The position numbers and the translations under genes were made by a program. A model generated the notes under the pieces. That model was not told the DNA's origin. It did no database searches and worked only from the letters and a program-made list of their open reading frames with translations. This document shows positions 11,289-62,906 of a stretch of DNA of 64,000 bases, in pieces. The stretch's first letter is position 1, and every line of letters starts with the position of its first letter. Source of the stretch: Alentia gelatinosa (Eukaryota; Annelida; Polychaeta; Phyllodocida; Polynoidae); assembly GCA_950022655.1 (NCBI GenBank), contig OX465592.1, positions 4,609,544 to 4,673,543 of the forward strand, read 5' to 3'.

Positions 11289-11377
11289 AATAATAACATT
11301 ACATGTATAATACCAGTAGTTACTCACACCCAGTTTAATTGTGATCTATCAAAGCTATGTTACTATTTATAGGAGGC

Positions 11378-12839: not shown

Positions 12840-12845
12840 GTTAAT

Positions 12846-12970: not shown

Positions 12971-13149
12971 CAAACTCATGAGTCTCTCCTGCTTTAATAG
13001 TTAAGAGGGCTTAACATAATTTATTATCCACCTTCTACATAGTGTCCATAGTGAACACATGGGGAGCGTGTATCACCATACCTAGAGAATACAGATATAT
13101 CCATCTCATAAAAATTGTCCATAGAAAACACAAAGAGAGTGTAAAGGGA

Positions 13150-31887: not shown

Positions 31888-31924
31888 CCAGCCCGGGATC
31901 CGCACGATGGACTCGTACCGCCTG

Positions 31925-32225
31925 CTGCGGAAATGAAAAATATAGTTATTGGGTAGCACCTGCTGCAGAAAACACACACAATTAAAAACATATCCTACAA
32001 TTTACATGGCGCCACCTGGCGATTTTTAATGATGTTGATAATTGGGTAGCGCCTGCTACAGAAAACAAACATGGTTAAAGGCATGTCCTACAATTCACTT
32101 TGGCGCCACCTGGTGATTTTCAAATGATGTTGATTATTGGGTAGCGCCTGCTACGAAAAAACATACATTGTTAATGGCATATTCTACAATTCACAGTGGT
32201 GCCATCTGGTGATTTTTAAATGTTG
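31925..32225. repeat. Three tandem units next to the gene C acceptor
   Basis: About 100-bp units each contain ATTGGGTAGC(G/A)CCTGCT(A/G)C, an AAAACA tract, CATATCCTACAATT and TGGCGCCACCTGG. The last two blocks come from the family 2 MITE end (7313-7360). The array was thus assembled from intron sequence plus a MITE terminus. Confidence 0.75.
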
Positions 32226-32574
32226 TTATGCTTTCCACTGAAGTAATCAATCTCTAAGACTATGTCTGATTTGAAATAACAGAAATAAGTGTATATTATT
32301 TACCATATGAATTTGTGTATCTATATACAAGTAGAACAAAAAATACTGCCCAAACCGCTAAGAGTTTAGGATATCTAAAAATGTGGCGTATTTGCCACAT
32401 TTTGTCCCAAACAGGTAGGTTGATGCAGAGATACAAGCGGCCAGAGGAAGTATAGCGCAGGATTTCTGCTTGGAGAGTGTCTCGTCTCCGACCACACCCT
32501 CACTCCCGCCACTGCGCACAAGGACAGCGCAGACCGGAAGCGGAACTGGCGGCACCCCTCACAACAACATTTAC

Positions 32575-32694: not shown

Positions 32695-33133
32695 ATGGAA
32701 GTAGCACGCCATCAGCAGTCTGCTGCCGGGGAGCGGGTCCACTGCCTGCACCCTGCCCGCCCGTCACGCATGGTCAGGCTACGGGCGTCACGCGTCACGG
32801 AACGGCCGTCATGCGTCACGGAACGGTCATTATACGTCACGGTACGGCCGTCTTGCGTCACGGCACGGGCGTCATGCGTCACGTCACACCCTTCATGCGT
32901 CACGTCACGGGTGTCACATGTCATGGAACGGTCGTCACGCATCGTCACCCCACGGCCGTCACGTGTCACAGAACGGGCGTCACATGTCATGGAACGGCCG
33001 TCACACGTTACGTCACGGCCGTCATGTGTCACAGAACGGCCGTCACGGTGGGTGGGTGTTACCATCACGCGCAGTCTGGTCACGGCCATTATCTTCATCT
33101 GCAGCATTCTCCTCCACATCAACACAGTCTCAG
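32695..33133 (+). CDS. Gene B exon 1: repeat-encoded N-region and signal peptide
   Basis: The frame runs open from the ATG at 32695 and ends TCTCAG|GTAAGT in phase 1. The last 25 codons form a basic-then-hydrophobic signal peptide (SLVTAIIFICSILLHINTVS). Upstream, the exon is a minisatellite of about 21 bp in frame, encoding RPSCVTE-like heptads. In-frame Met codons inside the repeats (MERSS, MERPSH) are more plausible starts than 32695, since a signal peptide at residue about 120 would be unusual. The start is therefore uncertain. Confidence 0.65.
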
Positions 33134-39100: not shown

Positions 39101-42100
39101 TGTGGCTGGATGTGGCTGGATGGGGCTGGATGGGGCTGGATGGGGCTGGATGGGGCTGGATGTGGACGGTAAGCGCGGCTTCTATTTAACAAGCCCAGTG
39201 TACACGGCGCCAGGAAAGGTTTTCCCCGAATCGATTCTGAGCGGAGACAGTTTTGTAAACGGAGTTGTTATTGGTGCACACGGGAATGTTGACGGGCGTC
39301 CTGGGCCGGACTATGTAGGCGGGAACAGGCGCGACACCTGCCGGCAGCCAGGTGAATCAAAACACCCTACCTTCGCCTGAAAATGGGGGTCAATGATAGA
39401 CGCTCCTTATATCAATGATAGACTCTCCTTATATCAATGATAGACTGTCAATCATAGACTCTGGTTATACCCTGGGAGTCTCCTTCTAGAAAGCATTAAA
39501 AAAACCACCCCTCGCCAAATCCATGAAGTGACATTACTGAGCATATTCACTGTATACTTGTAGGGAGCTAAAGTAGGTCACAAAACATTTCCAGATACCT
39601 TGTCAGTTACTTGTTAGGTGGTTTGGTGAATGTGTGCATAACTATTTGTGGTATTTGTACCTATTTGTTGATTTTTTATCTATTTCTGGTATTTATACCT
39701 ATATGTGGTATTCTTACTTATTTGTGGTATTTATGCAAAACTGTTTGGGGTACTTCTGATTCTAACATGTGTAGATATTTTTCTGATTTTAACATTCTGT
39801 TCTGTTATTAACATGTACATACATTGTGCTTTATCTGACATGTACGTATGTTGTTCTAGTTCTAACTTGTACATAGGCCTACATTGTTCTGGTTCTAACA
39901 TTACGTACATTATTCTGGTTCTAACTTTACATACGTTATTTTGATTGCGTATGTTGTTCATCTTCTAACATTACGTATGTTATTCCAGTTCTAACATCTA
40001 CTTATGTTATTCTGCTTCTAACATTACTACGTACGTCGTTCTGTTTCTAACATTACGTACGTTTTCTGTTTCTAATATTACGTACGTCGTTCTGCTTCTA
40101 ACATGACATACGTTGTTCTGTTTCTAACATTACCTACGTTGTTCTGTTTCTAACATTACGTATGTTGTTCTGTTTCTAACATTACATACGTCGTTCTGCT
40201 TCTAACATGACATACGTTATTCTGATTCTATCATTACTTACGTTGTTCTGTTTCTAACATTACGTATGTGGTTCTGCTTCTAACATTACCTACGTTGTTC
40301 TGTTTCTAACATTACGTATGTTGTTCTGTTTCTAACATTACATACGTCGTTCTGCTTCTAACATGACATACGTTATTCTGATTCTATCATTACTTACGTT
40401 GTTCTGTTTCTAACATTACGTATGTGGTTCTGCTTCTAACATTACCTACGTTGTTCTGTTTCTAACATTACGTATGTGGTTCTGCTTCTAACATTACATA
40501 CGTCGTTCTGCTTCTAACATGACATACGTTATTCTGATTCTATCATTACTTACGTTATTCTGATTCTAACATTGCGTATGTTGTTCTGATTCTAACATTG
40601 CGCATGTTTTTTCTGATTCTAACATTACGTATGTCGTTCTGTTTCTAACATTATTATATACCTGTGCCAGTATCTTACACAAATACCAACCTCTGCTAGG
40701 GTATTGGTATTAAATATATACCGGCACAGTATGTGGTATAAAATGACGTACCACCCTACTTTGAATACAAATTCTGATTGGCTGAAAAAGATTGCATTGA
40801 CCTACTTATGAAATGCTGGCAGTGACTTGCAGCACTCCGCTAATTTATGTGTGCAAAGGATCACAGGAGTTGAAGGGAAAAAAAGAGTAAAAAATGTGCT
40901 TAGAGCATATTCTGTGCTTGACTTTCACTAAGATGTCAACAGATATACCAGCACACTTTGAATCCAGCTTGGACAGCAGATTTCCTTCTGTAATTCATCA
41001 AATACTTATACTTGAAGGTATATAATAAAATAAAAATGTATTACCTTACTGGTACATACTCACATACCTTGTTTCTTTTGATAAAAATATTCCACTCGCT
41101 CTGCGAGCTCGTGGAATATTTTTATCAAAAGAAACGCGGTATGTGAGTATGTACCAGTAAGGTATATACATTTTATCTTATTACTGTTTCTAACATTACG
41201 TACGTTATTCTGATCTAACACGACATACATTGTTCTGATTCTAACATTGCGTACGTTATTCTGTTTCTAACATTACGTATGTCATTCTGTTTCTAATATT
41301 ACTGTTTCTAACATTACGTACGTTATTCTGATCTAACATTACGTACATTTTTCTGCTTCTAACATTATGTAGTCGTTTTGTTTCTAACATTACGTACGTC
41401 ATTCTGTTTCTAACATTACATATGTCGTTCTGACCTCAGGGCAGTGTGACAAGGAGAGCCACCTGGCGGGCGACCTGTGCATGGAGGTGCAGATGATCAC
41501 CTTGCCGTACGGAGAGGCCAATACGGCGTGTCGGGGCACAGTCAACAACACCGCCGGGGAAGTGTGGAGGGGACGAGGCCTCGCCTCACTGTCTGACCCC
41601 GACCTGGAGTACAGAGGTGACCCAACACCCAACACTAACCTCACACCTTACCCCTCATACACACCTCACACCTCACACCTCACACACACCTCACTGTCTG
41701 ACCCGGACCTGGAGTACCGAGGTGATCCAACACCCAACACTAACCTCACACCCACCAAACTCACATCACCCAACACCCAACACTAACCTGACACCCACCT
41801 CACACCTCACTGTCTGACCCCGACCTGGAGTACCAAGGTGAGGTTTATCACATCACCCGACACCACACACTAACCTGACACCTCACACATACCTTACACA
41901 CACCTCACTGTCTGACCCAGACCTGGAGTACAGAGGTGAGGTTTATCACACCACACGACACCACACACTAACCTCACACCTCACACACACCTTACACACA
42001 CCTCACACCTCACTGTCTGACCCCGACCTGGAGTACAGAGGTGAAGTTTATCACACCACCCGACACCACACACTAACCCCACACCTCACACACACCTTAC

Positions 42101-45100
42101 ACACACCTCACTGTCTGACCCCGACCTGGAGTACAGAGGTGAGGTTTATCACACCACCCGACACCTAACATTAACCTCACACCTCACACACACCTCACAC
42201 ACACCTCACACCTCACTGTCTGATCCGGACCTGGAGTACCAAGGTGACCTCTCACACCACCCAACACCCAACACTAACCTGATACCCACATCACACCTCA
42301 CACCCACCTTACACACACCTCACACACACCTCACATACACCTCAGGATCAATAAAAAAAATAATCCCTAAGAATCGAGAATTTTTGTGAAAACTAAAGAA
42401 ACACGTCGAAAAAACCATCGTTTGTTGTAATTACATCCATCTTCTCAAATAATCCTAAGAATTTACATATAATATATGGCATTTCATTTGAGATTATTCA
42501 TTTTTGCTCTCCAAGTATAAGCCTAGCGTTGTATATACAGACAAATAGACTAAATATCAGAGTTATTCTCCTCATACAATGGCTTTTGAATTCTGTATAC
42601 AATAAATTTGAAATCCGTATGCCATGGTCATGGTATATGACAGATTCTAAACAATGGGTTGTGGTTTACGGAGTACTGATACATTCTCAATGGGGACGAC
42701 GCATAACACGGACATGGCTGACTTTTCCACAGGGTCAATAGTAATGCTTGAGGCGTTGCGAGATCGGCAGGAACTGAGTGAAAACGACAGATTCTGGTTG
42801 GGCGCCAAGGAGAGATCGCGGAAAGTCGCGTGGAAATATCTAGGTAAGCAAATGGTTAAAATTATGGGGTGCTTCATGTGTGGGAATGTCGAGGTAAGCA
42901 AATGGTTAAAACTGTTATTGTTGGGATTATGGGGTTCTACATGTTTGAAAATACTGCGGTTACTGCTATGGGATGTGGGTGGAAATATTGAGGAATGTAA
43001 ATGGTTATTACTATGGGGTTTTACATGTGTGGAAATATTAATGTATGTAAATTGTTACTGCTATGGGGTGCTTTGGGTGGAAATATTGAGGTATGTAAAG
43101 GGTTATTGCTATGGGGTGTTGATTGTGTGGAAATATTGAGGTAAGTAAATTGTTGTTTGTGATTTAACATCCCAGGAGACCCTGAGGTTATATAGAGACT
43201 ATGGTATACTTTAACAATCATTGGGTACTCTGTGTGTGGAAACATCATGGTGGATAAATGATGGGTATTACATGTGTGGAAATATTGTGGTAGGTACATG
43301 GTTACTACTATGGGGTGCTGTGAATGGAATATAGAGATATGTAAATGGTTATTACTATGGGGTTAACGTGAAGAGTGACAAGATCTCATGGTGAAAGTCA
43401 GAAGTGACGAGATCTCGTGGTGAATGCGAGGACTGGTGAGATCTTGTGGTAAAGGCTAAGAGTGACGAGATCTCATGATTAATGTGAGAATTGAGAAGAT
43501 CTTGTGGTGAACGTGAAAACTGATGAGAACTTGTAGTGAACGTGAGGGTTAAAGCCCAATACACATCTACTGATTCAGGGTTGAACGATTAGTTCCCAAA
43601 TCGTATAGGAGTTGGTGAACTTGTAGCAGGCAATTACGTAACCTCCCGGCCCATGTTGGCCACCCAATCAGGGGCCATTTAACAATGTTTCGTTGTAGGC
43701 GACTGGATTATCAACATAAAGTTTTGGTGAATGATTTAGAAACATTGAACTACAACTCGTCTGCAACTAAAGAACATCTCTAATTGTTGGCTGACCCTAC
43801 ATTTACTGACTAGGGCCGACTCCGTTAGGATGCCTCGCCTGAGACAAATTACAGATACTTTGTTGCCGGCAAAGGTACATTAATGTTCCGAAATCGGTAG
43901 ATGTGTATTGGGCTTAACGAGATCTCATGGTGAACGTGAGCGGCTCGTGCAGTCAGTGGTCCGTGACGCCCGCCACACCTCAGTGCACACCTCACCCGTC
44001 ACCAGCGAAACCCGGAAGTGGTTGCCGTGCTAACCAGCACGACTCCGGGAACCAGCGAAGCGTGACGTCAGAGCTGACGTCACGCCTCACCGCGTCTGCC
44101 GTAATTGGGTCATCTACCAGCGTGACGTAGGGTGTGTGAGGGTACCGGTAAAGCACCAGCGGGGAGGTGAGGGAGGGGGGGGGGGGCTGAGGCGGGGGTA
44201 TTTCTGGCATCTAGATCTAAATGGCCTAGTGGCCTATCGTGGCCTATCGCGGCCTATAGTGCTGGAATGTGGGCTATTTCTAGGATTGTTTCCATTCTTC
44301 TATTGGGTATGACCGGAAAAATGTTAAGGTCACATAAGCATTTCTATAAACACTGCTATTTTTGGAAATTCCCATTAGAAGAACATCTAAAATCATTTCA
44401 AAAGTCATATCATATTAAAGTCATTAACTCATATTCAATTCAATGAAGTATAATTTTAGCCTAATACAGGCAGCAGTTATTTCTACAGATGATAGGATTT
44501 ATACATAGACCTGGAGTTGATTATTGCAGATGGTATTATATACTGATAGATATTCATGTATTTATTTAGAGTTGCACATTACAGACACACAGATTATAGA
44601 GGAAACCTTCAAAAGTTTAGGGTCAGAGCTTGTATCTTATCGAGTTTGAATCGCGTAGTAATTCACAAGGCGAAGCCGCATGAATTACGTAGATGGGAAC
44701 AAGCTCTGATCCTAAACTTGAATGGGTTTCTGAATTTATCTCACCCCTCACATTGACACATTTGTGACATAATTCCCCTATTGAATATTTTTCCTAAATA
44801 TCTCATGGGTGTTAAATACGAGTTCCCGATGTTAAGATACCAGGGGTGAGATAAATCTGTGTACTTATTTTGGGTTGTGTCTTACAGATGGTATGATGTA
44901 CACACAGTTATCCATGTATTTATTTCGGGTTGCGTCTTACAGATGGTATGACATACACACAGTTATCCACGTATTTATTTAGGGTTGCGTCTTACAGATG
45001 GTATGACATACACACAGTTATCCACGTATTTATTTCGGGTTGCATCTTACAGATGGTATGACATACACACAGTTATCCACGTATTTATTTAGGGTTGCGT

Positions 45101-48100
45101 CTTACAGATGGTATGACGTACACACAGTTATCCACATATTTATTTCGGGTTGCGTCTTACAGATGGTATGACATACACACAGTTATCCATGTATTTATTT
45201 CGGGTTGCGTCTTACAGATGGTATGACATACACACAGTTATCCATGTATTTATTTTGGGTTGCGTCTTACAGATGGTATGACGTACACACAGTTATCCGT
45301 GTATTTATTTCGGGTTGCGTCTTACAGATGGTATGATGTACACACCGTTATCCATGTATTTATTTCGGGTTGCGTCTTACAGATGGTATGACATACACAC
45401 AGTTATCCACGTATTTATTTCGGGTTGCGTCTTACAGATGGTATGACGTACACACAGTTATCCACGTATTTATTTCGGGTTGCGTCTTACAGATGGTATG
45501 ACATACACACAGTTATCCATGTATTTATTTCGGGTTGCGTCTTACAGATGGTATGACATACACACAGTTATCCGTGTATTTATTTTGGGTTGCGTCTTAC
45601 AGATGGTATGACGTACACACAGTTATCCGTGTATTTATTTCGGGTTGCGTCTTACAGATGGTATGACGTACACACAGTTATCCATGTATTTATTTCGGGT
45701 AGCGTCTTACAGATGGTATGACGTACACACAGTTATCCGTGTATTTATTTCGGGTAGCGTCTTACAGATGGTATGACGTACACACAGTTATCCATGTATT
45801 TATTTCGGGTTGCGTCTTACAGATGGTATGACGTACACACAGTTATCCGTGTATTTATTTAGGGTTGCGTCTTACAGATGGTATGACGTACACACAGTTA
45901 TCCACGTATTTATTTCGGGTTGCGTCTTACAGATGGTATGACATACACACAGTTATCCATGTATTTATTTCGGGTTGCGTCTTACAGATGGTATGACATA
46001 CACACAGTTATCCATGTATTTATTTTGGGTTGCGTCTTACAGATGGTATGACGTACACACAGTTATCCGTGTATTTATTTCGGGTTGCGTCTTACAGATG
46101 GTATGATGTACACACCGTTATCCATGTATTTATTTCGGGTTGCGTCTTACAGATGGTATGACATACACACAGTTATCCACGTATTTATTTCGGGTTGCGT
46201 CTTACAGATGGTATGACGTACACACAGTTATCCACGTATTTATTTCGGGTTGCGTCTTACAGATGGTATGACATACACACAGTTATCCATGTATTTATTT
46301 CGGGTTGCGTCTTACAGATGGTATGACATACACACAGTTATCCGTGTATTTATTTTGGGTTGCGTCTTACAGATGGTATGACGTACACACAGTTATCCGT
46401 GTATTTATTTCGGGTTGCGTCTTACAGATGGTATGACGTACACACAGTTATCCATGTATTTATTTCGGGTAGCGTCTTACAGATGGTATGACGTACACAC
46501 AGTTATCCGTGTATTTATTTCGGGTAGCGTCTTACAGATGGTATGACGTACACACAGTTATCCATGTATTTATTTCGGGTTGCGTCTTACAGATGGTATG
46601 ACGTACACACAGTTATCCGTGTATTTATTTCGGGTTGCGTCTTACAGATGGTATGACGTACACACAGTTATCCATGTATTTATTTCGGGTTGCGTCTTAC
46701 AGATGGTATGACGTACACACAGTTATCCGTGTATTTATTTCGGGTTGCGTCTTGCAGATGGCACCTTCATGGAGGAGCAGGGTTGTTACAGATCAGACAC
46801 CCCGCTTCCCGGACTCCATACCATCGACTCCCTGCTTCCCGATAAATGCATCACGGCGTGCGCTGCATCGCAATTCATGGCCATCAAGGTAAGCTCCTCC
46901 ACCCATAACTACGATTGCAGGACGTTAGGGCCCACCACCTAAAAGTCGGGACGTTAGGGCCCAGCTGATACCCGCGGTGAGAAAGCCTCAGTCGCCCCTC
47001 GGCCGCACTGCAATGCCGCATTCATACCTGTGGTGCCGGGAGCAAGAAATGGCATAAATGGACGTTAGGGCCCGCCTGATTTTGTAGAATTGGTTATTGT
47101 TCCTAAAAAAAACGCTAAAAACGGAAATGACAAGGTGTTCGCAAATTTCATGAAATGTAAATGATGATTTGACATGTATGTCAATGATATATGCCGATGT
47201 TATCATAGGTGGGCCCTAACGTCCCGATGGGTGGGCTCTAACGTCCCGATGAGTTGGCCCTAACATCCTGACTTTTGGATTAACGTCTACATACCGTATG
47301 CATATGTCAATGATATTATAGGTGGGCCCTAATGTCCTGATGAGTGGGCCCTAACGTCCTGACTTTCAGATGGTGGGCCCTAACGTCTACATACCGTATG
47401 GATATGTCAATGATATATGCCAATGTTATCATAGGTGGGCCCTAACGTCCTGATGAGTGGGCCCTAACGTCCTGACTTTCAGATGGTGGACCCTAACGTC
47501 TACATACCGTATGCATATGTCAATGATATATGCTGAGGTTATTATAGGTGGGCCCTAACGTCCTGATGAGTGGCCCCTAACGTCCCGACTTTTGGATGGT
47601 GGGCCCTAATGTCTACATACTGTATGCATATGTCAATGATATATGTCAATGTTATTATAGGTGGGCCCTAACGTCCTGATGAGTGGGCCCTAACGTCCCG
47701 ACTTTTGGATGGTGGGCCCTAACGTCTACATACTGTATGCATATGTCAATGATATATGCCAATGTTATTATAGGTGGGCCCTAACGTCCTGATAAGTGGG
47801 CCCTAATGTCCCGACTTTTGGATGGTGGGCCCTAACGTCTACATACTGTATGCATATGTCAATGATATATGCTGATGTTATTATAGGTTGGCCCTAACGT
47901 CCTGATGAGTGGGCCCTAACGTCCTGACTTTCGGATGGTGGGCCCTAACGTCTATATACTGTATGCATATGTCAATGATATATGCTGATGTTATTATAGG
48001 TGGGTCCTAACGTCCTGATGAGTGGGCCCTAACGTCCTGACTTTCGGATGGTGGGCCCTAACGTCTACATACTGTATGCATATGTCAATGATATATGCTG

Positions 48101-54100: not shown

Positions 54101-57100
54101 ACACAGTGGGAACAGATCATCTTGTAAACTAAGATATTGGCTGTTTTTATTGTCAGGTGCCCTGTTAATGTATATGCTGTGGGAACAGATCGTCTTGTAA
54201 ACTCAGATATTGGCTGTTATTGTTTTCAGGTACCCATTAATGTACAATGCTGAGGGAAGAGATAGCTCGCAAACTCAGATATTGGGTGTTTTCATTGTCA
54301 GGTGCCCCTTTAATGTATACGCTGTGGGAAGAGATCGTTTCGTAAACTCAGATATATTACTGTTTTCATTGTCACATGCCCCGTTTATGTACACACTGTG
54401 GGACCAGATTGTCTCGTAAACTAAATGTTGGCTGTTTTCATTGTCAGGTGCCCCGTTCATGTACACACTGTGGGAGCCGAACCTGGAGTATGCGAAGCGG
54501 GCGGACACTGACACCTGCCTGGTGGCCAAGTACAACCAGGCAGCGCTGGGATATCTGTGGGCCACAGAGAGGTGTAACACCGGGACGGCCATCAGGGGCT
54601 TCCTGTGTGAGTACGGTGAGTACAGAGCTCCAACATGGAGCCGGGTCCTGCTGAATTACGTATACCTACGAAAAGTACAGGGGCCTGTTTAATAAAATAG
54701 GATCTTACATGAAGACCCTTTTCGGTACCTCCTACAAGGGTTGTCGTTTAACAATATTCAAGTCTGTTTGCTAAGACAGTCTTAGCTGTCCATAAGGTCA
54801 TCCACAAGTGCAGAGTACAAGGAGGCCTCATGCGAAGGATACCGTTTAATAATATTCAACCTCATTCGCTAATCTGACAGTCCTAGCCGACAGAAGGCCA
54901 TCTCTAAGTGTTGAATAAAGTTAATGCACATTGTGCCTGGGTCTCGTTGGCATACTGAAAAGTGTCTTCATGTTCGAGACCATTTATTCAGCAGGCCCCA
55001 GGCACACATAGTGGGGGATATACATCTAGTTCTTGGACTACATAAATGATACAATGATATCTGTAGACAATAATCGATAGTTTTGTGGACAAGTGACCGT
55101 AAACACCGGGACGGCCATCAGGGGCTTCCTGTGTGAGTACGGTGAGTACAGAGCTCCAACATGGAGCCGGGGCCTGCTGAATAACGTATACCTACGAAAA
55201 GTACAGGGGCCCGTTTAATAATATAGGATCTTACATAAAGACCCTCTTCTGTACCTCTTACAAGGGTTATCATTTAACAATATTCAAGTCTGTTCGCTAA
55301 GACAATCTTAGCTGTCCATAAGTGTTGAATAAAGTTGACATACATCGTCTCTGGGTCTCTATGGCATACTAAAAAGGGGCTGCATGTACGATCCTAGATT
55401 ATTGAAGGGGCCTCAGGGTACAATGAGACCTCATATGAGGGTTATTTCATTCGCCAATCTAACAATCGACAGAAGGCCATCCACAAGTGTTGAATAAAGT
55501 TAATCCACATGGGTCTCTATGGCATACAAAAAAGTATCTTCATGTTCCTCCTTCAGATGCTATATTGTTGCCGATAAGTTGTGGTTTCTATATTCCTAAT
55601 TCCGTGGCCAAAAATTTATCACATTAATAAACGGAACGTTGGTAAATGGTGCTTGATCGGATGGCCAACATGGGCTAAGGTATTACGTAATTCGCCTGGG
55701 ACTCCTATACAATTTGGGAACTAATCTTTCAATCCTGAATCAATAGATTTGTATTGGGCTTAAATCCATAGCAGTTCGAATGAACTTTCTCAGACAGTTT
55801 CACATTTCTCTTCACCACAGAGAGAGTAAGACCGACCACAGAAGCACCGACCACCGAACGAGCGACGACCACAGCGGAACCGACCACGACACAGGCACCG
55901 ACAACGACCCCAGAACCGACGACCACGACGCCGGAACCCACGACAGTCGCCATCACCACAGCAGCTCCCACCACACTGCAGCCCACGACCGAACCGCCCA
56001 CAACCACAGGTAGAAATATCGCTGAGCACCTAGAATCTAGGATATGAAAGAGTACATTCTTTTATTATTCACCTTATACAAAGTGCCCGCAGAAGACACA
56101 TAAGGAGTTTGTATGTACATACCCAGCGCATACGGATATGTTGTATGCTCCGCGTGGCGTATATGGAAAAATAGTGCGTACGGAAAAATAGCGCATAACT
56201 AAAACGAACTGATATGAATATGCCACTTGTCCAGAAAAGGTGGATAATGAATACAATACAGACTGGCTTCAGATAAAAGCGGTTGTATGCTCCTCGGAGT
56301 TGACTCTGCGCAATAAAAGCGTCCTCTGTCCTACGATGTAAAGTTGATGTTACGCAATATCCTCGCAGATGCTTGGATATTACTACGCGTCAACTCCTCG
56401 GAGCATACGGCCGCTTGTATCTGAAACCAGTCAATATTATATTCTCGGGAGCGGTGCTGACGTCACTAAGATACACTGCGTTGCTCGATTGTCTCGCTGT
56501 GCAGTTTATTTTCCCGAAAGCGGTGCAGTGCACTCTCATCGCTCAAAGGGTTAAACAACTTTTCACTCCATTGCAACCAATGTTAAATACACTGTACATC
56601 TCAGGTAATATCTACGTAAATATATAACATAGAGAAACCAAACAAAAAATGGCATGCAGCTGGAGAACAGAGGAAGAGAGTATATGGATTTTTTTTTATC
56701 CCTTTTTATGCAAAGATTGTTTTATTTGGTGTGTTCTCAAGCAAACTGCCGAAATTGCAGATGACAGGCTGCTGCAACTGTCAAAACAAAAACTTATTAA
56801 AAAGTACATAATTATTCAAATTCAAACATTGACACTTCTCTCCCACAATGTTTATTCATATCACTTGACAGAAGAACATCAAACAACCTCTAACTACGCA
56901 TATTAATCATGTGCAGTGAGTTCAAACATCGATTTACGTTTCGTCGATCGAGCGATAATAACAGAAAGCTAGGGTGCTCGAAACTGGCAATACCCTTTGC
57001 CCCAAGCGGTCGTGAAAGAAACTAAACGTTCCGCTCCCGAGAATATTTATCCTACCCCTCATATAAATATCCATAGACTTAACATGGTGTGACTGTATAC

Positions 57101-60100
57101 CACGGTTATGCCATGAGCTACCTGGTGAAATATGAAGTTCAAAATATATGACGGGGTGAAATAAATTCTATACGTCGTTTCAACAAGGCAGCTACCGCGA
57201 CTATTTAGCAAGTGACTGTTCCTAGGCGACCCGTGCTTGATTGATATTCATGATATGTGAATATTTTAACAGAGGAAGACCTCAATTGGTTGATCAGGTC
57301 AGGTGACCAGTTTTGAGGATACTCATTGGCTGAAAATTCAGACAAAGAGCGGTGGGAAAACCTCCCTATCAGTTTTGTGTACTGTGATTCGGGAGTGTGT
57401 CGCCCGTGGCGCCACAGTCTAACTGGTTCACTGAGTGATCCGTCCCTGGCGGGCGGACCTTGTACTACACTGTGGTGATGCGTTCTCCCTCTGGTGTGTG
57501 CGAGACGAACTTCTCTATGTATTCACTATGAGTAACTATTTATGGAGTTTTCCGTGCTTGCTCAATAGTTTCGATTATCTAGTCTCATCAGGCGATTGTA
57601 TCTTACCTTTCCGGTCTTACTTGTTCTTTAAAGGTGGGTTTTTATCCTCAAAACTCGCTTTTTCGAATTTTCATTGATTTATCGAGAATAAAATTTGGAC
57701 TCTCGGCGGGTCAATCACGTGTTGTGGGTTGCTGGGTGTTACTTCCACAAACGATGTTCCATTCTTTTCGGACCAAAATAGAGATGAAACAACCCTGCAG
57801 GATCCCCACTGTACACACGGTGAAAAGAATTTTTAAACAGTAAAATTTATGTCACTCAATTTCATATTATTTACATCGCGTTTGTTGTCTTCCGCTACAG
57901 ATATCACTCAGCTCCGCTTCATGATATCATTCTACGAAGACAACTCATGCCATACATATAAACAATCATATGCAATTTTGTGTTACTCTATTAGTCGTCT
58001 TGAGTGTCAACCTCTCGCTCCTGGCTTTCTAGGCACTGTGTCCTGTTACTGTTTGTCTTATCAGTTTATTGTTGAATCGGTCTGCTTTGGAGAGTAGATC
58101 TAAAGCTATAAAGTATGCGCTAAGCGGTAGTCTATAGATCCCTTTTGAATAGTGCTGAGCTATGATAATGATAATGATTTATTCAAAGTTCTAATTTGAA
58201 TTAATGCCATAAGATGTAATTTGTGTCAGTTTAGTTGAAAGAGTGAAGATTTTAAATGTATTAGAGGGAAACTATGTTCCGGTGAGAGAAAGTTACGAGT
58301 AAAGGTTCGAAAAAACTACTGCCCAAGGCCTTGGACACGGTCAGTAATTTTGCCGAGTAACTTTGACTTTCTCTCTCTGGAAACTTGGTTTCCCTATTCC
58401 TATATACCTTCAAATGTAGTTTGATAATGATAAATAGTATTATTTGCTTACCCGCCATCAAACGCATAGCCAGATCTAACCTTATCGAGTAATATGACAC
58501 ACTATGTTTTCTCCCAATTGCACTTTTCGTATGAATTTTGTAAGAGACAATGTGATTGGTCTAAACATCAATCTTGGGTAGTGAATGTCAGCCTTTGGTA
58601 GTAAACATAAGTTATTCCACTCCCATAGCGTGGTGTTATCTTAGAGTGTTTGGCCATAGGTATATAGGAATTGTTGATACTCCTTAGAGTGGTAGTAATA
58701 AGAGAAGATTAAGTTTACTTGTATCCGTAGAATGGTAGATATGAGTGAGAAGAGAGTCAGACGTTAAGTTTGTGGGTGTCAGGCACTGCCTTGACCCGGC
58801 TACAGCTTCTAGCCTTACTACTGCAGGCGATGACTCCTTGCTACACTCTAGCGCTGACAGTAGAGATTCACACACGACTGGCACTGACACGGCTCTCTCT
58901 AGTGACACAACTGACTCACAACCCACTGCTGCCAATCGCACGACGACTGCATCTACTGTCAATGGTATGTCTAGTACTACTGTCACTGTTAGCTTGGTGA
59001 CACTGTCAACGGTATGTCTGGTACGACTGTCACTGTTAGCATGGTGACACTGTCAATGGTATGTCTGGTACGACTATCACTGTTAGCACGGTGACACTGT
59101 CAACAGTACATCTGGTACAACTCTCACTGTGAATAACAGCATGGTGAAACTGTCAACGATACATCGAGTATGACTGTTACTGTCACTGTCACCACAGTGA
59201 CGCTTTCAACGGTAAATCTGGTGAGACTATTGCTGTCACTGTCAGCATGGTGATACTGTCAACGATATGTCCGGTATGACTGTTACTGTCACTGTCATCA
59301 CTCTGACACTGTGAGTGTCAATGCTACATATGGTACGACTATCACTGTCAATGACCTCTAACTAGCAGCTGTCACAAAGGAACATATGACCCCTGATATA
59401 GGCCTTAAACCTCACAAATACAACCCCATATATCAAGATCCCTTCTGAGAGAATGTTGTCATTGTAATTCCACCATTGTTATCTTCAAATGAGTGGGTAG
59501 TATGCATGCCATCTATGAATGTAATCCACTAATGAGTGGGTAGTATGCATGATATCTATGAATGTAATCCTCTAATCCTCATTTCATCACATGACTCCTT
59601 AAAAATTCAAGTACCACATTTTAGAAATTTTACTTTCGTGATAATTTTGACTCAAATGGACAGTTCAGCTTTGACCAGAAGTGTTTATCACTCACTGAGA
59701 CGACTGGTACCGGTTCGGTAAAGGGAGATTTATCTAAGATATTCATATAAGGAGAGAGCAAAGACTCATCTGTATATACTCATGTTGTTCATCTTTATCT
59801 GCTGTTGCTGGAAGAGCGACCTGGGAGCGGTATCAAAAGTCGGGAGGGTGCTAAACGAGAGTACTCACCGCCAAAGCGAGAGCTAACAATGGCACTTGAA
59901 GTGTCGCTGTCGAGGTGGAGGTGCTGCTCACTATTGGGCATTGGTAGCGATTTTGCTGCCGCTTTGATTCAAAGTGCTGCTCGCTGTTGCGGCCTCTCGC
60001 TTTGAAATGCAACGTGCCGCTGGCGAGACTTCACCCAACTTTTGAAACAGCTCCTAGTATGTGTCGAATGTAATAAAGTGATTTAAAAAAAAATAATTTG

Positions 60101-62906
60101 AGGCACATTTTCATTCACTGAGTGCTCCTTGTTCAGAATCTAGTTTTCCTGTCACCCTAGTACAAACACATTATCAGATTAATCCAATGATGATACGATA
60201 CATTCATGAACCATCTCTCTGTCAGACAAACATTCATGGTGAACGATCGTATTCGTCACTTAGTATGATTTCAACGCAAGACTTGTTCATGAATGGAAAG
60301 CCACCAGACTTTCGCTGAAGAATATTATTGAGAGTTCACGTAATCATACAATTATCTATATAAAACTGAAAAAATGCCTGTTAAATTGTCCTGTTGTCAT
60401 AAACTAATCTAAAAAGTATCTGATGAAGAAAAGCATGCTCTAGATTAAGTAAAACACGTTCAATCATCATTCATTATCTCAGACATTCATTTGACAAGTT
60501 TCCAATGTTTTAAAGCCTTTCCTTTCAATCACCACTGATGCTCCTCGCTTGTAACACTTCTCACATCACAAACAACAAACTTATCTTTCCTTTCAAATCG
60601 CAGTCGCTGCAGAAACTACAACATCACCGGAAGTGACGACTGCTTCCGGGTCAGATCCGGGGTCAGGCACAAAACGAGGCTCGGGAGACCCAGGGAAGAA
60701 CGCGGCGTCCTCTGATAGCACTTCCGGTCTGAGCAACCTAGAAATAGGTCAGTAGAGAACTCGTGACGTTTTAGTTCCAAACCTGTTTCAAATGGTAGAA
60801 CGTTTGATTCACGGTCTTTGTGACTATAAGCCCATTTCCATTAACCTGTTGGATGATTAAATGATTCTGGAATGTTTATGCTGGCCTAATATTTTATGTG
60901 TGCCCAAATGGGATTTCTCCACAAAAAATACCTATGTATGTTTACCATAATTGGTGTTATCTTCAGAAATTATGTAATATAATTTCATGTAAGTATTTTT
61001 TTATTCTTGATGAAGTAAACCAAGACTCTTGCATCGTTTTGGATTGCCCTTTGGGGTAATGGTTATAGTCTGGCTAAAATCCAAGCTAGATACTGGTTAT
61101 AACCCTGTGACTGCCTCCGCGATCAACCCAGCTATGTATAGTTGTGCGGAACGGCAATGTAAAAATCGAAAATAAAAAATAGATTAAAAAAAAAAAAAAG
61201 GAGCCAAAGTGAATCCACTGAAACACCATTTCCGGTGGCCAGTAGGAATAGGCTTAGTGCTAAATCTTTTGTTTTGGGTCTAGTTTGTTACTGATGAAGT
61301 TTAGTTTACTACTATCGTCTCTGAATAGCTCTGTCTCAAAGCTACGAGGACAGGTGTTAAGTTTATAAAAAATATGGATCTAAAAGATTGGAGAATGACA
61401 CATATAATCTCGAACCTACATAGTCAAAGTACTGAGCCCCTGTATCCGGAAATGGTCTTTTGTAAACGAGTATCTGTGGTTTCAGCGAGTTCACTTTGGT
61501 TGCCTATTGGAGATCTTTTGAGTTCTCCTAAAAGGCTGTTGCTGGTGCAACTGACTGTGCTTCAGTATCAAATGATCGGTGAGGGTACATAGTCTTCACT
61601 GTGTATCACTACACAGTCTCTCTTTAGTGTTCATAGTGTATTACTACACGGTCTCTGTTTAGTGTTTATTGTGTATTAATACGTGGTCTCTTTTTGGTGT
61701 AATATTTTCGTTCTTTTAGACATCCACTTGGGGCTATTTGATTGGAAAAAATGATGGCTAAGCCCCGTGACTAAACTACTTAATACGTGGTCTCTGTTTA
61801 GTGGTCATTGTGTATTAATACGCAGTCTCTCGTTACAGTGTTAATTGTGTATCAATACACAGTTTCTGTTTAGTATTCCTGGTTTATTAATATAGAGGCT
61901 CTGCTTTGTGTTTATTGTGTATCAATACGTGGTCTCTATTTACAGTATTTTGTTGTGTATTAATACACAGTTTCTGTATACAGTTTTAATTGTATATTAC
62001 TACGCAGTCTCTGTATACAGTGTTCATTGTGTATTAATACGCAGTTTCTGCTAAGTGTTTATTGTGTATTAATACGTGGTCTCTATTTACAGTGTTTATT
62101 GTGTATTAATACGCGGTCTCTATTTAGTGTTTATTGTGTATTAATACGTGGTCTCTTTTTACAGTATTTATTGTGTATTAATACGTGGTCTCTGTTTAGT
62201 GTTTATTGTGTATCAATACGCGGTCTCTGTTTTCAGCGCTCATCGTTTTAATTCTCATCATCCTCATCATTCTCATCGCTCTGCTACTCATATTCTTCTT
62301 GGTGAAGAAGAAAGAGAAAAAGTAAGTTTATGTCATTTACTTGAAATATTAGAGAACCTAAACATTCCTACATATCCTTGATCAAAACCTATTGGAATAT
62401 GAGAGTTACATTTTGTATGAATTTCCAAAATGCATGGATATGATTTATCACTTCGAGTGGTTTACAGAGTTTGTTTGTTGCATTTATCATCCACCTTTTC
62501 GCATAAATTAAACGCAGTAGTTGCCATACTTAAAGGTATAACAGTTGGGACCCTATAGCACAAAGGGACTATTTTTCCCATATACCATGTCTTTGGGGCC
62601 TTACACCACAGATCTGAATCCGTATCCCACAGTTTTAGTATCTGACAGGTTTTATATAATGGGTCGTGGTTTACTGAGTCCCCATACATTTTCAAAGGGG
62701 TGTTTGTATACATGGATAATAAATTAAATTGAAGGGAGTAGAGTTTAGTGTAAGATTGACATGCCAGGTGTATAATATATTATCTTTTTCCGTGTGCAGC
62801 CAGGCAGCAGTGAGTCCTGAGGGCGGCTTCGCGGACGAGAGACATAAAGCTACGTACCCGAACCAGGAACCCATCTACGTGCCGCCCAGCGAGAGCAGTA
62901 GTACGC
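32695..62906 (+). CDS. Gene B: CTLD/WSC type I membrane receptor (14 exons, 3' end outside)
   Basis: Exons 32695?-33133, 39199-39351, 41440-41616, 42733-42843, 46758-46888, 50684-50849, 52247-52390, 53486-53728, 54448-54615, 55821-56009, 58827-58964, 60604-60747, 62237-62321, 62800-62906. All junctions are in frame. All are phase 1 except the WSC-internal intron (phase 0) and the intron after the transmembrane exon (phase 2). Domain order: signal peptide, short unknown segment, CTLD1 first two thirds, WSC, CTLD1 last third, CTLD2, Thr/Ser stalk, transmembrane helix, tail. About 650 residues excluding exon 1. CTLDs bind glycans or proteins and WSC is a putative carbohydrate-binding module, so a cell-surface recognition role is inferred. 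Nine exon edges are copied into tandem arrays or duplications in the neighbouring introns. Confidence 0.82.
32762..33055. repeat. 21-bp GTCACGGAACGG minisatellite overlapping exon 1
   Basis: About 14 units near GTCATGCGTCACGGAACGGC with variants, mostly 20-21 bp. Open in several frames on both strands. It occupies the 5' end of gene B and is rich in CpG. Confidence 0.9.
33180..33560. repeat. 11-12-bp GCTACGACACG minisatellite
   Basis: About 30 degenerate units of GCTACGACACG / GCTATGACATG begin 45 nt after the exon 1 donor. Non-coding. Confidence 0.85.
33561..34480. other. Gene B intron 1, no gene seen
   Basis: 33590-34080 repeats short phrases (GTGTGTCGGA, ATGTCGGAAG) and may be an old element. 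The ORF at 34066-34272 shows no domain or splice support. Confidence 0.5.
34490..35110. repeat. Block homologous to gene A intron 1, split by a foldback
   Basis: 34490-34790 and 35050-35110 match 2140-2510. The foldback at 34803-35045 (TATGCCACGACTGGAGTTTGG family, apex GGCGAGGCC, 3' AACTCAATGTTAAGCCTATG, end TTAGGGGTAGGATAA) interrupts the match, so it inserted after the two blocks diverged. Confidence 0.75.
35337..35712. repeat. 40-bp minisatellite (about 9 units)
   Basis: Unit CATCCTCAGAAAACAGTAGG followed by AGAGAAATGTCAGCATGTGG. The middle units are nearly identical. Confidence 0.92.
36234..37062. repeat. 60-bp minisatellite (about 14 units)
   Basis: A very homogeneous 60-bp unit containing AAAAAACTGACCCATTATTA and AGTATGAGACAGCACACCGT. 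The long minus-strand frames are by-products of a unit length divisible by 3. Confidence 0.95.
37063..38335. repeat. Degenerate 32-bp array related to the 60-bp array
   Basis: Units near CAGACAGCACACAGTAAAAA then CTGACCCAATAT, interrupted by unique stretches at 37340-37685 and 37840-37910. It is the ancestor-like form of the 60-bp array, and the inverse of the array at 50215-50635. Confidence 0.85.
38455..39166. repeat. 10-bp minisatellite (about 71 units)
   Basis: GGATG(T/G)GGCT repeated in strict 10-bp register, with only the fifth unit showing a deletion. Open in all three + frames because the unit has no stop; Trp/Gly/Met-rich translations are artefacts. Confidence 0.95.
39199..39351 (+). 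CDS. Gene B exon 2: unrecognised N-terminal segment
   Basis: Acceptor CTTCTATTTAACAAGCCCAG, donor GTGAAT, 51 codons, phase 1 at both ends. The last residues (DTCRQPG) run into CTLD1. The translation includes GVVIGAHGNVDGRPGPDY, faintly like the start of a discoidin-type fold, but I do not claim a family. An alternative acceptor at 39213 would shorten it by 5 codons. Confidence 0.6.
39640..40645. repeat. About 25-bp array, TTCTGTTTCTAACATTACGT unit
   Basis: Units of 23-26 bp (GTTCTG(T/C)TTCTAACATTACGTACGTT). It continues at 41185-41435 up to the acceptor of exon 3. Internal duplications of several units are visible at 40120-40500. Units before 39880 are more diverged. Confidence 0.88.
40646..41184. 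mobile_element. Foldback insertion splitting the 25-bp array
   Basis: Array units flank it on both sides. 41043-41165 is a hairpin: CCTTACTGGTACATACTCAC and TTTCTTTTGATAAAAATATT pair with the right arm around TCGCTCTGCGAGC. The left end (ATATACCTGTGCCAGTA) has an inverted partner-like TATATACCGGCACAGTA at about 40710. Confidence 0.8.
41440..41616 (+). CDS. Gene B exon 3: CTLD1, N-terminal part
   Basis: Acceptor TTCTGACCTCAG, donor GTGACC, 59 codons, phase 1 at both ends. The pattern C-x11-A-x2-x-C (CMEVQMITLPYGEANTAC) and GRGLASLSDPDLEY fit helix 1, helix 2 entry and the G-x-LA-x-I/L strand of a C-type-lectin fold. Confidence 0.8.
41585..42330 (+). repeat. About 100-bp array seeded by the exon 3 donor edge
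   Basis: CTCACTGTCTGACCCCGACC plus TGGAGTACAGAGGTGA is the exon's own 3' end and donor. The same sequence recurs six more times in the intron (about 41690, 41808, 41901, 42009, 42107, 42211), each followed by GAGGTGA and a CACACC-rich spacer. Confidence 0.93.
42500..42700. repeat. Fragment of the 2.7/62.6-kb repeat abutting exon 4
   Basis: ACAATGGGTTGTGGTTTACG then GATACATTCTCAATGGGG parallels ATAATGGGTCGTGGTTTACT and CATACATTTTCAAAGGGG at 62657-62702. It lies 30-40 nt before the exon 4 acceptor, so the pre-acceptor region may be repeat-derived. Confidence 0.65.
42733..42843 (+). CDS. Gene B exon 4: CTLD1, middle part
   Basis: Acceptor ACTTTTCCACAG, donor GTAAGC, 37 codons, phase 1 at both ends. 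FWLGAKERSRKVAWKYL is the F-W-I/L-G-x..W-x-W-like core strand of a CTLD. The exon ends exactly where CTLD2 is split (compare FWIGL..WMWNS in exon 8). Confidence 0.82.
42829..43360 (+). repeat. About 50-bp array seeded by the exon 4 donor edge
   Basis: GTGGAAATATCTAG|GTAAGC of the exon is followed by about eight units of (GTGGAAATATTGAGGTAAGT)-like sequence plus AAATGGTTATTACTATGGGG, many retaining a GTAAG or GTATG donor. Confidence 0.9.
43361..43945. repeat. About 30-bp GACGAGATCTCATGGTGAA array, interrupted
   Basis: Seven units before 43548 and one after 43917. The interruption is the MITE at 43549-43917. Confidence 0.88.
43549..43917. mobile_element. TTAA-flanked MITE, family 4 (369 bp)
   Basis: Ends TTAAAGCCCAATACACATCT and AGATGTGTATTGGGCTTAA. 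It sits inside a 30-bp unit array, giving a clear insertion context with TTAA at both borders. A partial inverted copy is at 55558-55763. Confidence 0.88.
43946..44504. other. GC-rich then AT-rich intron 4 stretch, no supported exon
   Basis: 43946-44165 has high CpG and an open frame with four Cys, but no splice pair in the phase needed by the neighbours. 44170-44190 is a G-run. 44220-44260 repeats GGCCTATCG. Confidence 0.5.
44505..46757 (+). repeat. 55-bp array seeded by the WSC exon acceptor (34 units)
   Basis: Unit: GGGTTGCGTCTTACAGATGG then TATGACGTACACACAGTTATCC and a TATTTATTT tract. The last unit becomes TTGCGTCTTGCAG|ATGGCACC, the true acceptor of exon 5. From 44886 to 46756 the spacing is exactly 34 x 55 bp. 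A 14-unit block (770 bp) is itself duplicated (marker CACACCGTTATCC at about 45343 and 46113). Diverged units at 44510-44585 lie beyond the foldback insertion. Confidence 0.96.
44587..44880. mobile_element. Foldback element, 'GTTTAGGGTCAGAGCT' family, copy 3
   Basis: Complete copy: TTTAGGGTCAGAGCTTGTAT and GAATCGCGTAGTAATTCACA pair with TGAATTACGTAGATGGGA and ACAAGCTCTGATCCTAAAC around GGCGAAGCC (44669-44677). The right part has GAGTTCCCGATGTTAAGATA and GGGGTGAGATAAAT. It is inserted in the 55-bp array. Confidence 0.85.
46758..46888 (+). CDS. Gene B exon 5: WSC domain, first half
   Basis: Acceptor GCGTCTTGCAG, donor GTAAGC, phase 1 in and phase 0 out. GCYRSD, a LPGLHT stretch and KCITAC give the first three of eight WSC cysteines (GCY-start; C-x3-C). 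Confidence 0.85.
46915..48415. repeat. 113-bp array with GGGCCCTAACGTC repeated three times per unit
   Basis: About 12 units. Each holds GTGGGCCCTAACGTCCTGAT, GGGCCCTAACGTCCTGAC and GGGCCCTAACGTCTACATAC, plus TATGTCAATGATATATGC. The phrase GGACGTTAGGGCCCACCACC at 46919 is the inverted form and sits 30 nt after exon 5. Confidence 0.93.
48416..48879. other. Gene B intron 5, no feature
   Basis: No supported exon. 48640-48700 and 49060-49170, 49600-49760 share phrases (GGACGTACCCTACACTAA, GTATGGATGTGACAG), a loose tandem family of about 100 bp. Confidence 0.5.
48880..49040. repeat. Foldback with AAACGTAGTGACT / AGTAACCACGTTT arms
   Basis: TCATTTGATGAAAAATATGG and the opposite CGTATTTTTTCATCAAATGA form the inner stem. 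The outer arms AAAACGTAGTGACTTAGCCC and GGGCTCAGTAACCACGTTTT close it. Confidence 0.8.
49925..50190. repeat. Foldback element, 'GTTTAGGGTCAGAGCT' family, copy 4
   Basis: Same order of blocks as 44587-44880, including GAGTTCCCAATGTTACGTCT and the end CCAGGGGTGAGATAAT. The central hairpin is shortened. Confidence 0.8.
50215..50635. repeat. 32-bp array, inverse of the 37-38 kb array
   Basis: Units near TTTTACTGTGTGCTGACCGG then TATTGGGTCGTA are the reverse complement of the CAGCACACAGTAAAA / GACCCAATA units at 37.1-38.3 kb. Confidence 0.9.
50684..50849 (+). CDS. Gene B exon 6: WSC domain, second half
   Basis: Acceptor ACATTGACTTCAG, donor GTGAGT, phase 0 in and phase 1 out. RCHC, FCDRCSG and KCG complete eight cysteines. 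CG..YYEVYKI matches the terminal C-G-G..VY strand of WSC. Exons 5 and 6 together are 297 nt, a symmetric phase 1 cassette. Confidence 0.87.
50826..51936 (+). repeat. 27/21-bp array seeded by the exon 6 donor edge (about 45 units)
   Basis: The exon ends TACGAGGTCTACAAGATCAACG|GTGAGT. The array repeats GGTGAGTATGAGGTCTACAA GGTCAAC in 27-bp and 21-bp forms. Almost every unit keeps GTGAGT or GTAAGT. Both unit sizes are multiples of 3, so the exon frame would stay open for about 218 codons (EYEVYKVNG repeats) to a TAG at 51503 if the true donor were passed over. Confidence 0.96.
52247..52390 (+). CDS. Gene B exon 7: CTLD1, C-terminal part
   Basis: Acceptor AATATTGTTGTAG, donor GTAAGT, phase 1 at both ends. 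W-F-x2-QPDN, C, and LC..FRSLCEI match the long-loop and final-strand region of a CTLD (W-x-QPD-N, then C..C-E). QPD in the long loop is the galactose-type Ca2+-site motif. The follow-up C-x-D strand (WND-like) is not clearly present. Confidence 0.83.
52480..53100 (+). pseudogene. Nested frameshifted copy of an acidic-protein transcript or element
   Basis: In intron 7. An ATG at 52619 opens MVDKNNEDSQEPRLDFEFTG, then a stop; another frame continues about 95 codons with KELDIPHGQARQLLQGLAKL (SAM-like helices) and an acidic RRRSESEDSEEDND tail, ending at 52998. AATAAA at 53079. A hairpin-like GGAGAGGG..CCCTCTCC pair lies at 52493-52538. It could be a retrocopy or the remnant of a mobile element. 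Family not recognised. Confidence 0.5.
53248..53485 (+). repeat. 72-bp repeats seeded by the exon 8 acceptor edge (3 extra copies)
   Basis: Each unit has TATATTGCAGTTTCNGG followed by GTTGTCCTATAGATGCGAAC, i.e. acceptor plus exon start. Offsets are exactly 72 nt (53275, 53347, 53419, 53491). 72 is 24 codons and all copies are open in the exon frame. Confidence 0.94.
53486..53728 (+). CDS. Gene B exon 8: CTLD2, N-terminal two thirds
   Basis: Acceptor TTGCAGTTTCAG, donor GTATGT, 81 codons, phase 1 at both ends. SWYKARENCHSLGGDLLIID and FFWIGLVATEWMWNS are the classical CTLD pattern (W..A...C...GG.L..I; FWIGL..W.W..G). Alternative in-frame acceptors 72, 144 and 216 nt upstream exist. Confidence 0.92.
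53745..54447 (+). repeat. 73-bp array seeded by the exon 9 acceptor edge (about 9 units)
   Basis: Unit: AACTCAGATGTTGGCTGTTT then TCATTGTCAGGTGCCCC and TTAATGTACACACTGTGGGA. ATTGTCAG|GTGCCCC..CTGTGGGA equals the true acceptor and the first 35 nt of exon 9. Spacing about 73 bp from 53791. Confidence 0.94.
54448..54615 (+). CDS. Gene B exon 9: CTLD2, C-terminal third
   Basis: Acceptor TTTTCATTGTCAG, donor GTGAGT, 56 codons, phase 1 at both ends. LWEPNLEYAKRADTDTCLVA, ERC and FLCEY fit the W-x-EP..D..C..C..F-x-C-E end of a CTLD. Confidence 0.9.
54575..55520 (+). repeat. 526-bp direct duplication of the exon 9 donor edge
   Basis: 54575-54950 recurs at 55101-55500: AACACCGGGACGGCCATCAG, GGGCTTCCTGTGTGAGTACG|GTGAGT and the following intron (GTACAGGGGCC(T/C)GTTTAATAA). 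The copy lacks the upstream part and any acceptor, so it is a decoy exon end. Confidence 0.93.
55558..55763. mobile_element. MITE family 4, partial inverted copy
   Basis: Matches the left half of 43549-43917 in reverse: CATGTTGG-type, GTAATTCGCCTG, AATTTGGGAACTAATC, and the end GTATTGGGCTTAA. It ends 58 nt before the exon 10 acceptor. Confidence 0.78.
55821..56009 (+). CDS. Gene B exon 10: Thr/Pro-rich stalk
   Basis: Acceptor TCTTCACCACAG, donor GTAGAA, 63 codons, phase 1 at both ends. Repeats of APTTT, EPTTT and PEPTT make a mucin-like, presumably O-glycosylated stalk above the membrane. Confidence 0.85.
56060..56440. repeat. Foldback, 'TGACTGGTTTCAGATAC' family, inverted copy
   Basis: Reverse complement of 21599-21933: ACTTGTCCAGAAAAGGTGGA, then GCTTCAGATAAAAGCGG..CCGCTTGTATCTGAAACCAG. 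It ends where the TIR element at 56439 begins. Confidence 0.82.
56439..57046. mobile_element. TIR element of about 608 bp
   Basis: ATATTCTCGGGAGCGG and CCGCTCCCGAGAATAT border the element. It separates the foldback at 56060-56440 from a TTATCCTACCCC end at 57047, suggesting insertion into another repeat. No transposase frame is seen. Confidence 0.75.
57047..58805. other. Gene B intron 10, no supported exon
   Basis: 57060-57170 holds a TTAACATGG box and a repeat end. 58265-58400 is a loose hairpin (AGAAAGTTAC..GTAACTTTGACTTTCT). ORFs at 57435-57677 and 57849-58097 have no domain or splice context. Confidence 0.5.
58827..58964 (+). CDS. Gene B exon 11: Ser/Thr-rich stalk
   Basis: Acceptor CCTTACTACTGCAG (an alternative at 58805 adds 7 codons), donor GTATGT, phase 1 at both ends. 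The translation (SHTTGTDTALSSDTTDSQPT) is Ser/Thr/Asp rich and continues the stalk. Confidence 0.72.
58955..59350 (+). repeat. About 47-60-bp array seeded by the exon 11 donor edge
   Basis: CTACTGTCAATG|GTATGT of the exon is followed by seven copies of ACTGTCAACGGTATGTCTGG plus TACGACTGTCACTGTTAGCA; several keep GTATGT. Confidence 0.92.
59351..59822. other. Gene B intron 11 stretch, no feature
   Basis: Only a short duplicated phrase (AATGAGTGGGTAGTATGCAT) at 59488 and 59532. Confidence 0.5.
59823..60055. mobile_element. MITE, family 1 copy 3 (233 bp)
   Basis: Same orientation and length as 130-362. The left TIR is mutated (GGGAGCGGTATCAAAAGTCG). The interior is highly similar, including GGTGGAGGTGC and GCTCGCTGTTGCGGCCTCTC. 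Confidence 0.88.
60056..60603. other. Gene B intron 11, 3' part, no feature
   Basis: AT-rich, nothing supported. Confidence 0.5.
60604..60747 (+). CDS. Gene B exon 12: Ser/Gly/Thr-rich juxtamembrane stalk
   Basis: Acceptor TTCAAATCGCAG, donor GTCAGT, 48 codons, phase 1 at both ends. AAETTTSPEVTTASGSDPGS and a KRGSGDPGK stretch precede the transmembrane exon. Confidence 0.8.
61010..61200 (+). mobile_element. Probable SINE with poly(A) tail
   Basis: A B-box-like GGTTATAACCC and an A-box-like GGGGTAATGGTTATAG lie about 45 nt apart. The unit ends in an A-rich tail at 61165-61199. Inference from layout only. Confidence 0.5.
61600..62236 (+). repeat. About 40-bp array seeded by the TM exon acceptor (about 15 units)
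   Basis: Unit: TATTAATACGTGGTCTCTGT TTACAGTGTTTATTGTG. The final unit reads CGGTCTCTGTTTTCAG|CGCTCATCGTTTTAATTC, and TGTTCATTGTGTATTAAT of the units is its diverged counterpart. The array therefore multiplies the acceptor of exon 13. Confidence 0.85.
62237..62321 (+). CDS. Gene B exon 13: transmembrane helix
   Basis: Acceptor TCTCTGTTTTCAG, donor GTAAGT, phase 1 in and phase 2 out. ALIVLILIILIILIALLLIF then FLVKKKEKK: a 23-24-residue hydrophobic helix with a basic stop-transfer, giving type I topology with the lectin domains outside. Confidence 0.93.
62440..62730. repeat. 2.7-kb foldback family, copy 2 (inverted)
   Basis: Counterpart of 2705-2960 in reverse: ATTTATCATCCACCTTTTCG, GGGACTATTTTTCCCATATA, ACAGGTTTTATATAATGGGT. 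Confidence 0.75.
62800..62906 (+). CDS. Gene B exon 14: cytoplasmic tail (gene continues)
   Basis: Acceptor TTTTTCCGTGTGCAG entered in phase 2 (AA+C gives Asn), donor GTAAGG, phase 1 out. It encodes RHKATYPNQEPIYVPPSESS, with two tyrosines in YPNQ and YVPP contexts that could be SH2 ligands when phosphorylated. If the donor is not used, the frame runs into the minisatellite and stops at 63115. The last exon probably lies outside the window. Confidence 0.78.

Follow-up and report, generated by a model that had tools for sequence, protein, structure and literature searches.

Tandem copies of nine exon edges in the introns of a lectin gene from the polychaete Alentia gelatinosa

Results

Genes and repeats of the window

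The stretch of DNA analysed here, which we call the window, comprises 64,000 nucleotides of contig OX465592.1 from Alentia gelatinosa. It contains a gene on the + strand, gene B, whose 13 exons join into a single open frame of 747 residues without a stop. Exon 1, the signal or anchor exon, ends at 33133, and its start codon is uncertain. The twelve exons that follow extend from 41440 to 62906 and keep the numbers 3 to 14 that were given to them in the original prediction. A separate exon 2 is not needed, as exon 1 has a phase 1 end from which exon 3 continues the reading frame. Reading frame and splice sites define exon 3 (41440-41616), where the first C-type lectin domain starts, exon 4 (42733-42843), exon 5 (46758-46888), with the WSC part, exon 6 (50684-50849), exon 7 (52247-52390), exon 11 (58827-58964), which encodes a Thr-rich stalk, and exon 13 (62237-62321), which encodes the transmembrane segment. 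For exon 8 (53486-53728), in the second lectin domain, the junction was taken from the joined frame, and exon 9 (54448-54615) was likewise placed by the joined frame. Two repeats lie at exon 1: a 21/63-bp minisatellite within its open frame, before the hydrophobic segment (32781-33047), and an 11-bp array (33171-33485) that starts 38 nt past the donor, the donor itself being outside the array.

The product of gene B is a membrane lectin in which a lectin domain with a WSC domain inside it is followed by a second lectin domain, the Thr-rich stalk and the membrane segment. Pfam reports Lectin_C (3.3e-14) and WSC (2.7e-4, below the cut-off of that family). Both domains are also present in protein P0001 of the annelid Owenia fusiformis, which is 28% identical to the gene B protein over 324 columns and in which the order of parts, judged by eye, is alike. 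The joined open frame, the Pfam domains and the likeness to the Owenia protein make the exon edges of gene B credible, and these edges are the foundation for every other result on the arrays. When the gene B protein is built from the outermost splice sites, its alignment to the Owenia protein runs through the 4/5, 6/7, 7/8, 8/9 and 9/10 junctions with nearby gaps of at most 3 residues; the alignment covers these five junctions and leaves out 3/4 and all past 9/10.

The search with the whole gene B protein gave three matches among 7982 scored candidates, and cephalochordates were absent from the three. A search with words from residues 1-385 gave no match, and one with the reverse transcriptase described below gave 2603 matches, of which, among the 120 listed, the top one was 39% identical and none was above 42%. 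None of these three protein searches yielded a close relative. No RNA family matched the window at gathering scores.

Gene A occupies 1860-11289 with six probable exons recognised by eye and is almost free of arrays; Pfam gave no match for two of its exons. An F-box gene lies on the minus strand at 31355-32227 (Pfam F-box-like, 1.8e-10), and its frame apparently shifts near 31700, perhaps because an intron was missed or the assembly slipped there. A reverse transcriptase fragment (RVT_1, 2.2e-16) is found on the minus strand at 24137-24964, and several long segments recur, by eye, in the region that holds it (about 17.3-29.9 kb). Outside recognised genes a 16-bp unit is repeated in tandem over 2.2 kb (13149-15349), with long open stretches in several frames. 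A 32-bp satellite, unlike the exon-edge arrays, is dispersed in introns 1 (36234-38315, + strand) and 5 (50227-50628, reverse complement) of gene B. Finally, a repeated and partly self-complementary element family is represented at 44590-44865, 49924-50139, 12820-12917 and 1223-1443, with matches that are 67-82% identical.

Nine exon edges with local copies

Each of 25 edges of gene B was scored by comparing the 50 nt around it with the 2 kb on either side, seeking a local copy. Nine edges score 22 to 50, and the remaining 16 score 9 to 16. The nine are exactly those that had been named from inspection of the sequence, namely the donors of exons 3, 4, 6, 9 and 11 and the acceptors of exons 5, 8, 9 and 13.

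On the donor side, the exon 3 array (41584-42344) has a unit of about 98/105 bp in 6 copies, all 6 with GT, and its copies include 33 exonic nt. At exon 4 (42844-43300) a unit of about 50 bp is present in 6 copies, 5 of them with GT, and takes in 14 exonic nt; the interval called by TRF, 42958-43154, stops short of the edge. The exon 6 array (50831-51933) is built of a 27-bp unit and 21-bp variants, with GT in 37 of 42 copies and 22-36 exonic nt. The exon 11 array (58955-59312) has a unit of about 47/53 bp, 6 copies, 4 with GT, and 10 exonic nt. The exon 9 donor is instead part of a tandem duplication (54576-55201) with a spacing of 526 bp. Its copies match at 98/100 positions around the edge and include 40 exonic nt; past this region the limits of the duplication are approximate.

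Among the acceptors, exon 5 has an array (44480-46757) with a 55-bp unit in 34 copies, all 34 with AG, and only 4 exonic nt; it is broken by an element at about 44590-44865. The exon 8 array (53231-53536) consists of 3 copies of a 72-bp unit, of which 1 has AG, and takes in about 51 exonic nt. The exon 9 acceptor array (53761-54475) has a 73-bp unit in 9 copies, 8 with AG, and at least 28 exonic nt (28-50). The exon 13 array (61590-62243) has a 35-37-bp unit in 14 copies arranged in two blocks, 12 with AG, and its exonic content is 0 to 21 nt depending on the method, TRF giving 7. All nine lie on the + strand with the gene. The stretch from 53729 to 54447, intron 8, is 95% array built from the exon 9 acceptor unit, and is a candidate for an intron that grew, or arose, through duplication.

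At all nine edges the copied stretch includes the splice site. Eight of the arrays together contain 120 copies; the dinucleotide is intact in 107 of these, and the single further copy at the exon 9 donor brings this to 108 of 121 with GT or AG, which bears out the claim of over a hundred candidate splice sites. The claim that each unit contains the edge of its own exon holds for seven arrays, which have at least 10 exonic nt, but is thin at exon 5 and uncertain at exon 13. This content bears on the alternative that the arrays arose inside introns and spread until exon constraint halted them, so that they end at edges but were not seeded there. Such spreading fits the 4 exonic nt at exon 5, the 0-21 at exon 13 and a 26-bp array ending just before the exon 3 acceptor, but seven arrays carry 10 to 51 exonic nt in their intron copies, and we consider this origin improbable.

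Three further edges were tried as edge arrays and rejected. The exon 7 acceptor has a borderline likeness to an upstream 41-bp array (score 16, against at most 15 in 200 shuffles). At the exon 14 donor and at the exon 3 acceptor, the nearby array does not take in the splice site; likeness to the 26-bp array at the latter stops 7 nt short of the acceptor.

Probable local origin and growth of the arrays

When the window was searched with itself, seven of the nine arrays had no further match. This favours a repeated local process over the spread of one repeat, as had been proposed, with this window as the scope of the finding. The associated statement that the unit sequences are unrelated needs two qualifications: the exon 5 array matches an outlying unit of its own, and the 526-bp duplication at the exon 9 donor has one further match in the window, near 3 kb.

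Several arrays have higher-order periods. The exon 5 array shows a period of 770 bp that is 99.5% identical over 780 bp, and the best lags of the exon 9 acceptor, exon 13 and exon 3 arrays equal several units. Such periods would fit repeated unequal exchange. A diverged exon 5 unit is found past the inserted element, relatives of which occur elsewhere in the window, and because this unit lies beyond the element we suggest that the exon 5 array is older than the insertion.

Copy numbers of repeat arrays are frequently misassembled, and the near identity of the 770-bp period at exon 5 would also be expected if repeats had been misjoined or over-expanded in the assembly. Against such an artefact, the units of most arrays differ at many positions, one array holds an inserted element, and nine unrelated arrays are not what misassembly would be expected to produce. 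We therefore regard an artefact as a very remote explanation for the arrays, the copy numbers of which may still be wrong.

Chance or preference for splice junctions

Two counts were made of how often repeats coincide with exon edges, and they differ in outcome. In the first, which is per base, random positions were counted when they scored at least as high as the lowest-scoring of the nine edges. Among 1500 random positions in gene B introns 47.5% did so, as against 9 of 25 edges, and among 1500 random positions in the window the figure was 30.7%. There is no excess at edges by this measure, because arrays fill about half of the introns of gene B (48% of intron bases between exons 3 and 14). 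A long array is, however, sampled many times in such a comparison yet has one origin, and so a count of arrays was added beside the count of bases.

For the second count, 17 intronic TRF arrays were called blind to exons, a repeat within the coding sequence of exon 10 having been dropped beforehand; for the null model each array was collapsed to one unit and placed at random in introns. Seven of the 17 straddle an edge, compared with 1.5 expected (P 0.0002), or 2.7 expected (P 0.009) if ancestral introns are assumed to have been half as long. A fuller, hand-made list gives 9 of 17 against 1.7 expected (P 1e-5). All three P values are uncorrected for the choice of gene B, and the excess comes from one gene, selected as striking, and depends on what is assumed about the length of ancestral introns. 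A test that placed whole arrays (9 at intron ends, 0.1 expected) was set aside because its intervals had been cut at the edges by hand.

These counts bear on the choice between a preference for junctions and the alternative that minisatellites are merely so dense in gene B that edges are caught by chance, the intron copies being harmless. Both the 48% cover and the frequency of repeats at random intron positions, which is as high as at edges or higher, are what this alternative would lead one to expect, but the number of array origins at edges exceeds its prediction on either list. Coincidence is in our view the less probable account. The hotspot that had been suggested at splice junctions receives moderate support from the array count in one gene and none from the per-base comparison, and we take it as moderately supported that, within gene B, arrays are seeded at junctions more often than elsewhere in the introns.

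Edge arrays outside gene B

The arrays had been described as a feature of one gene. Nine are indeed in gene B, but the adjoining F-box gene probably has a case of its own. Here a 96-bp array on the minus strand (31946-32227) lies by the acceptor (31924/31925) of the F-box exon, and the edge aligns with it over 10 exonic nt, with a score of 17 compared with a maximum of 14 in 500 shuffles. Judged from this alignment, it is a probable single instance of an edge array outside gene B. None of 10 edges of gene A has a copy; only 2.5% of its span is array, as against 39% for 41440-62906.

Decoy sites and selection

The intron copies of splice sites could be maintained by selection as spare sites that make splicing robust or allow a choice of isoforms, chiefly at exons 6 and 8, the units of which keep the frame. 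The presence of the dinucleotide in 108 of 121 copies agrees with this proposal, as do the consequences of using the inner sites of these two exons. At exon 8 all three extensions are in frame and free of stops; at exon 6 all six decoys tested, of 42 copies, preserve the frame, five of the six lack a stop, and the frame is open through the decoy at +645. In addition, 5 of 12 distinct codon variants in the exon 6 array are synonymous, compared with 16% of random changes, although this count is small, is uncorrected for transition bias and is a weak hint on which we do not rely.

Other observations run against the proposal. Retention at other positions predicts 103.7 intact dinucleotides among the 120 copies, and 107 are observed (P 0.45, in a test of little power); because the dinucleotides are kept like other bases and not better, there is no sign in this comparison of selection on decoy splice sites, and the suggestion that redundancy is selected gains nothing from it. 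AG has been lost in two of the three exon 8 copies, so that only one of the in-frame extensions has it. Outside exons 6 and 8, 25 of 26 decoys examined shift the frame or hit a stop. The Owenia protein, over the 324 aligned columns, has no counterpart of inserts that would derive from decoys. Selection for spare sites is accordingly, in our judgement, an unlikely explanation. The alignment of the modelled protein with that of Owenia at five junctions, with only short gaps, suggests indirectly that the outermost sites are those in use.

Discussion

We favour the view, to which we give a probability of about three in four, that gene B holds nine separate local arrays of the 'mirage' type, which grew from duplications spanning splice junctions and are tolerated, mostly as neutral decoys. 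A short stretch spanning a junction would by accident have been duplicated in tandem, and unequal exchange or slippage would have multiplied the additional copies within the intron. As the outermost splice site would go on linking the correct exons, the arrays would be tolerated, and the inner copies would then be mostly neutral decoys. The structure is of a known kind, present many times over in gene B.

That junctions are favoured as starting points is a moderate sign from a single gene. A broader reading, that junctions are recurrent seeds of minisatellites in this lineage, perhaps beyond cephalochordates, with introns largely rebuilt from their own exon edges, is tentative and, in our judgement, less likely than not. 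Should junctions out-seed other DNA, a mechanism would be needed, and genes of this kind would be a natural test case for the choice that the spliceosome makes among dozens of near-identical sites, exon 6 with its GT in 37 of 42 copies being an example. Junction seeding, if true, would also bear on the gain of introns and exons through tandem duplication, and would give ready spare splice sites as a source of new exons or introns. If the excess disappears genome-wide, gene B would be a good illustration of a structure already known, and nothing more. Among the open-access papers listed by our literature searches, we saw no genome-wide survey of exon-edge arrays.

Comparison with known systems

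Minisatellites in C. elegans provide a partial parallel. CeRep25B is described as lying in introns beside alternative exons in several genes (PMC4039745). It resembles the gene B repeats in forming intronic tandem arrays that possibly bear on splicing, but in that account it is a family across several genes, whereas each gene B unit is tied to its own exon edge. A second parallel is the form of intron gain, reviewed in PMC3443670, in which an exon segment bearing AGGT undergoes tandem genomic duplication. Potential splice sites are copied in tandem there, as in gene B; in the process outlined in that review, however, duplication of the exon segment yields a new intron, while the gene B copies lie within existing introns.

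The closest likeness, as had been proposed, is to the 'mirage' minisatellites of amphioxus treated in PMC3087553 and PMC3902484, where cephalochordates are the only hosts presented; the latter adds troponin C and PGBD5 as mirage genes. In these accounts a mirage unit spans an exon edge, often with AG or GT, on the donor or the acceptor side, and is 10-160 bp long. The sequence-based features recur in gene B. Units span the exon-intron boundary, with at least 10 exonic nt in seven of nine, 4 at exon 5 and an uncertain number at exon 13; many units carry the splice dinucleotide (108 of 121 copies); and units are specific to their locus within the window, apart from the exon 5 outlier and the one match of the exon 9 donor duplication. 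Two further traits of mirages concern regular splicing, which is undisturbed, and array length, which varies between alleles or cells; the related observations in gene B are indirect, namely the agreement of the outermost-site model with the Owenia protein at five junctions and the higher-order periods, which would fit repeated exchange. The gene B arrays differ from mirages in number: in the amphioxus genes as described there, one or two boundaries per gene are involved (BflGb6, BflGb9 and PGBD5; Adh3 and troponin C are outside this comparison), and gene B has nine. Single-gene cases in amphioxus have already been described; the distinctive point of gene B is how many edge arrays one gene contains.
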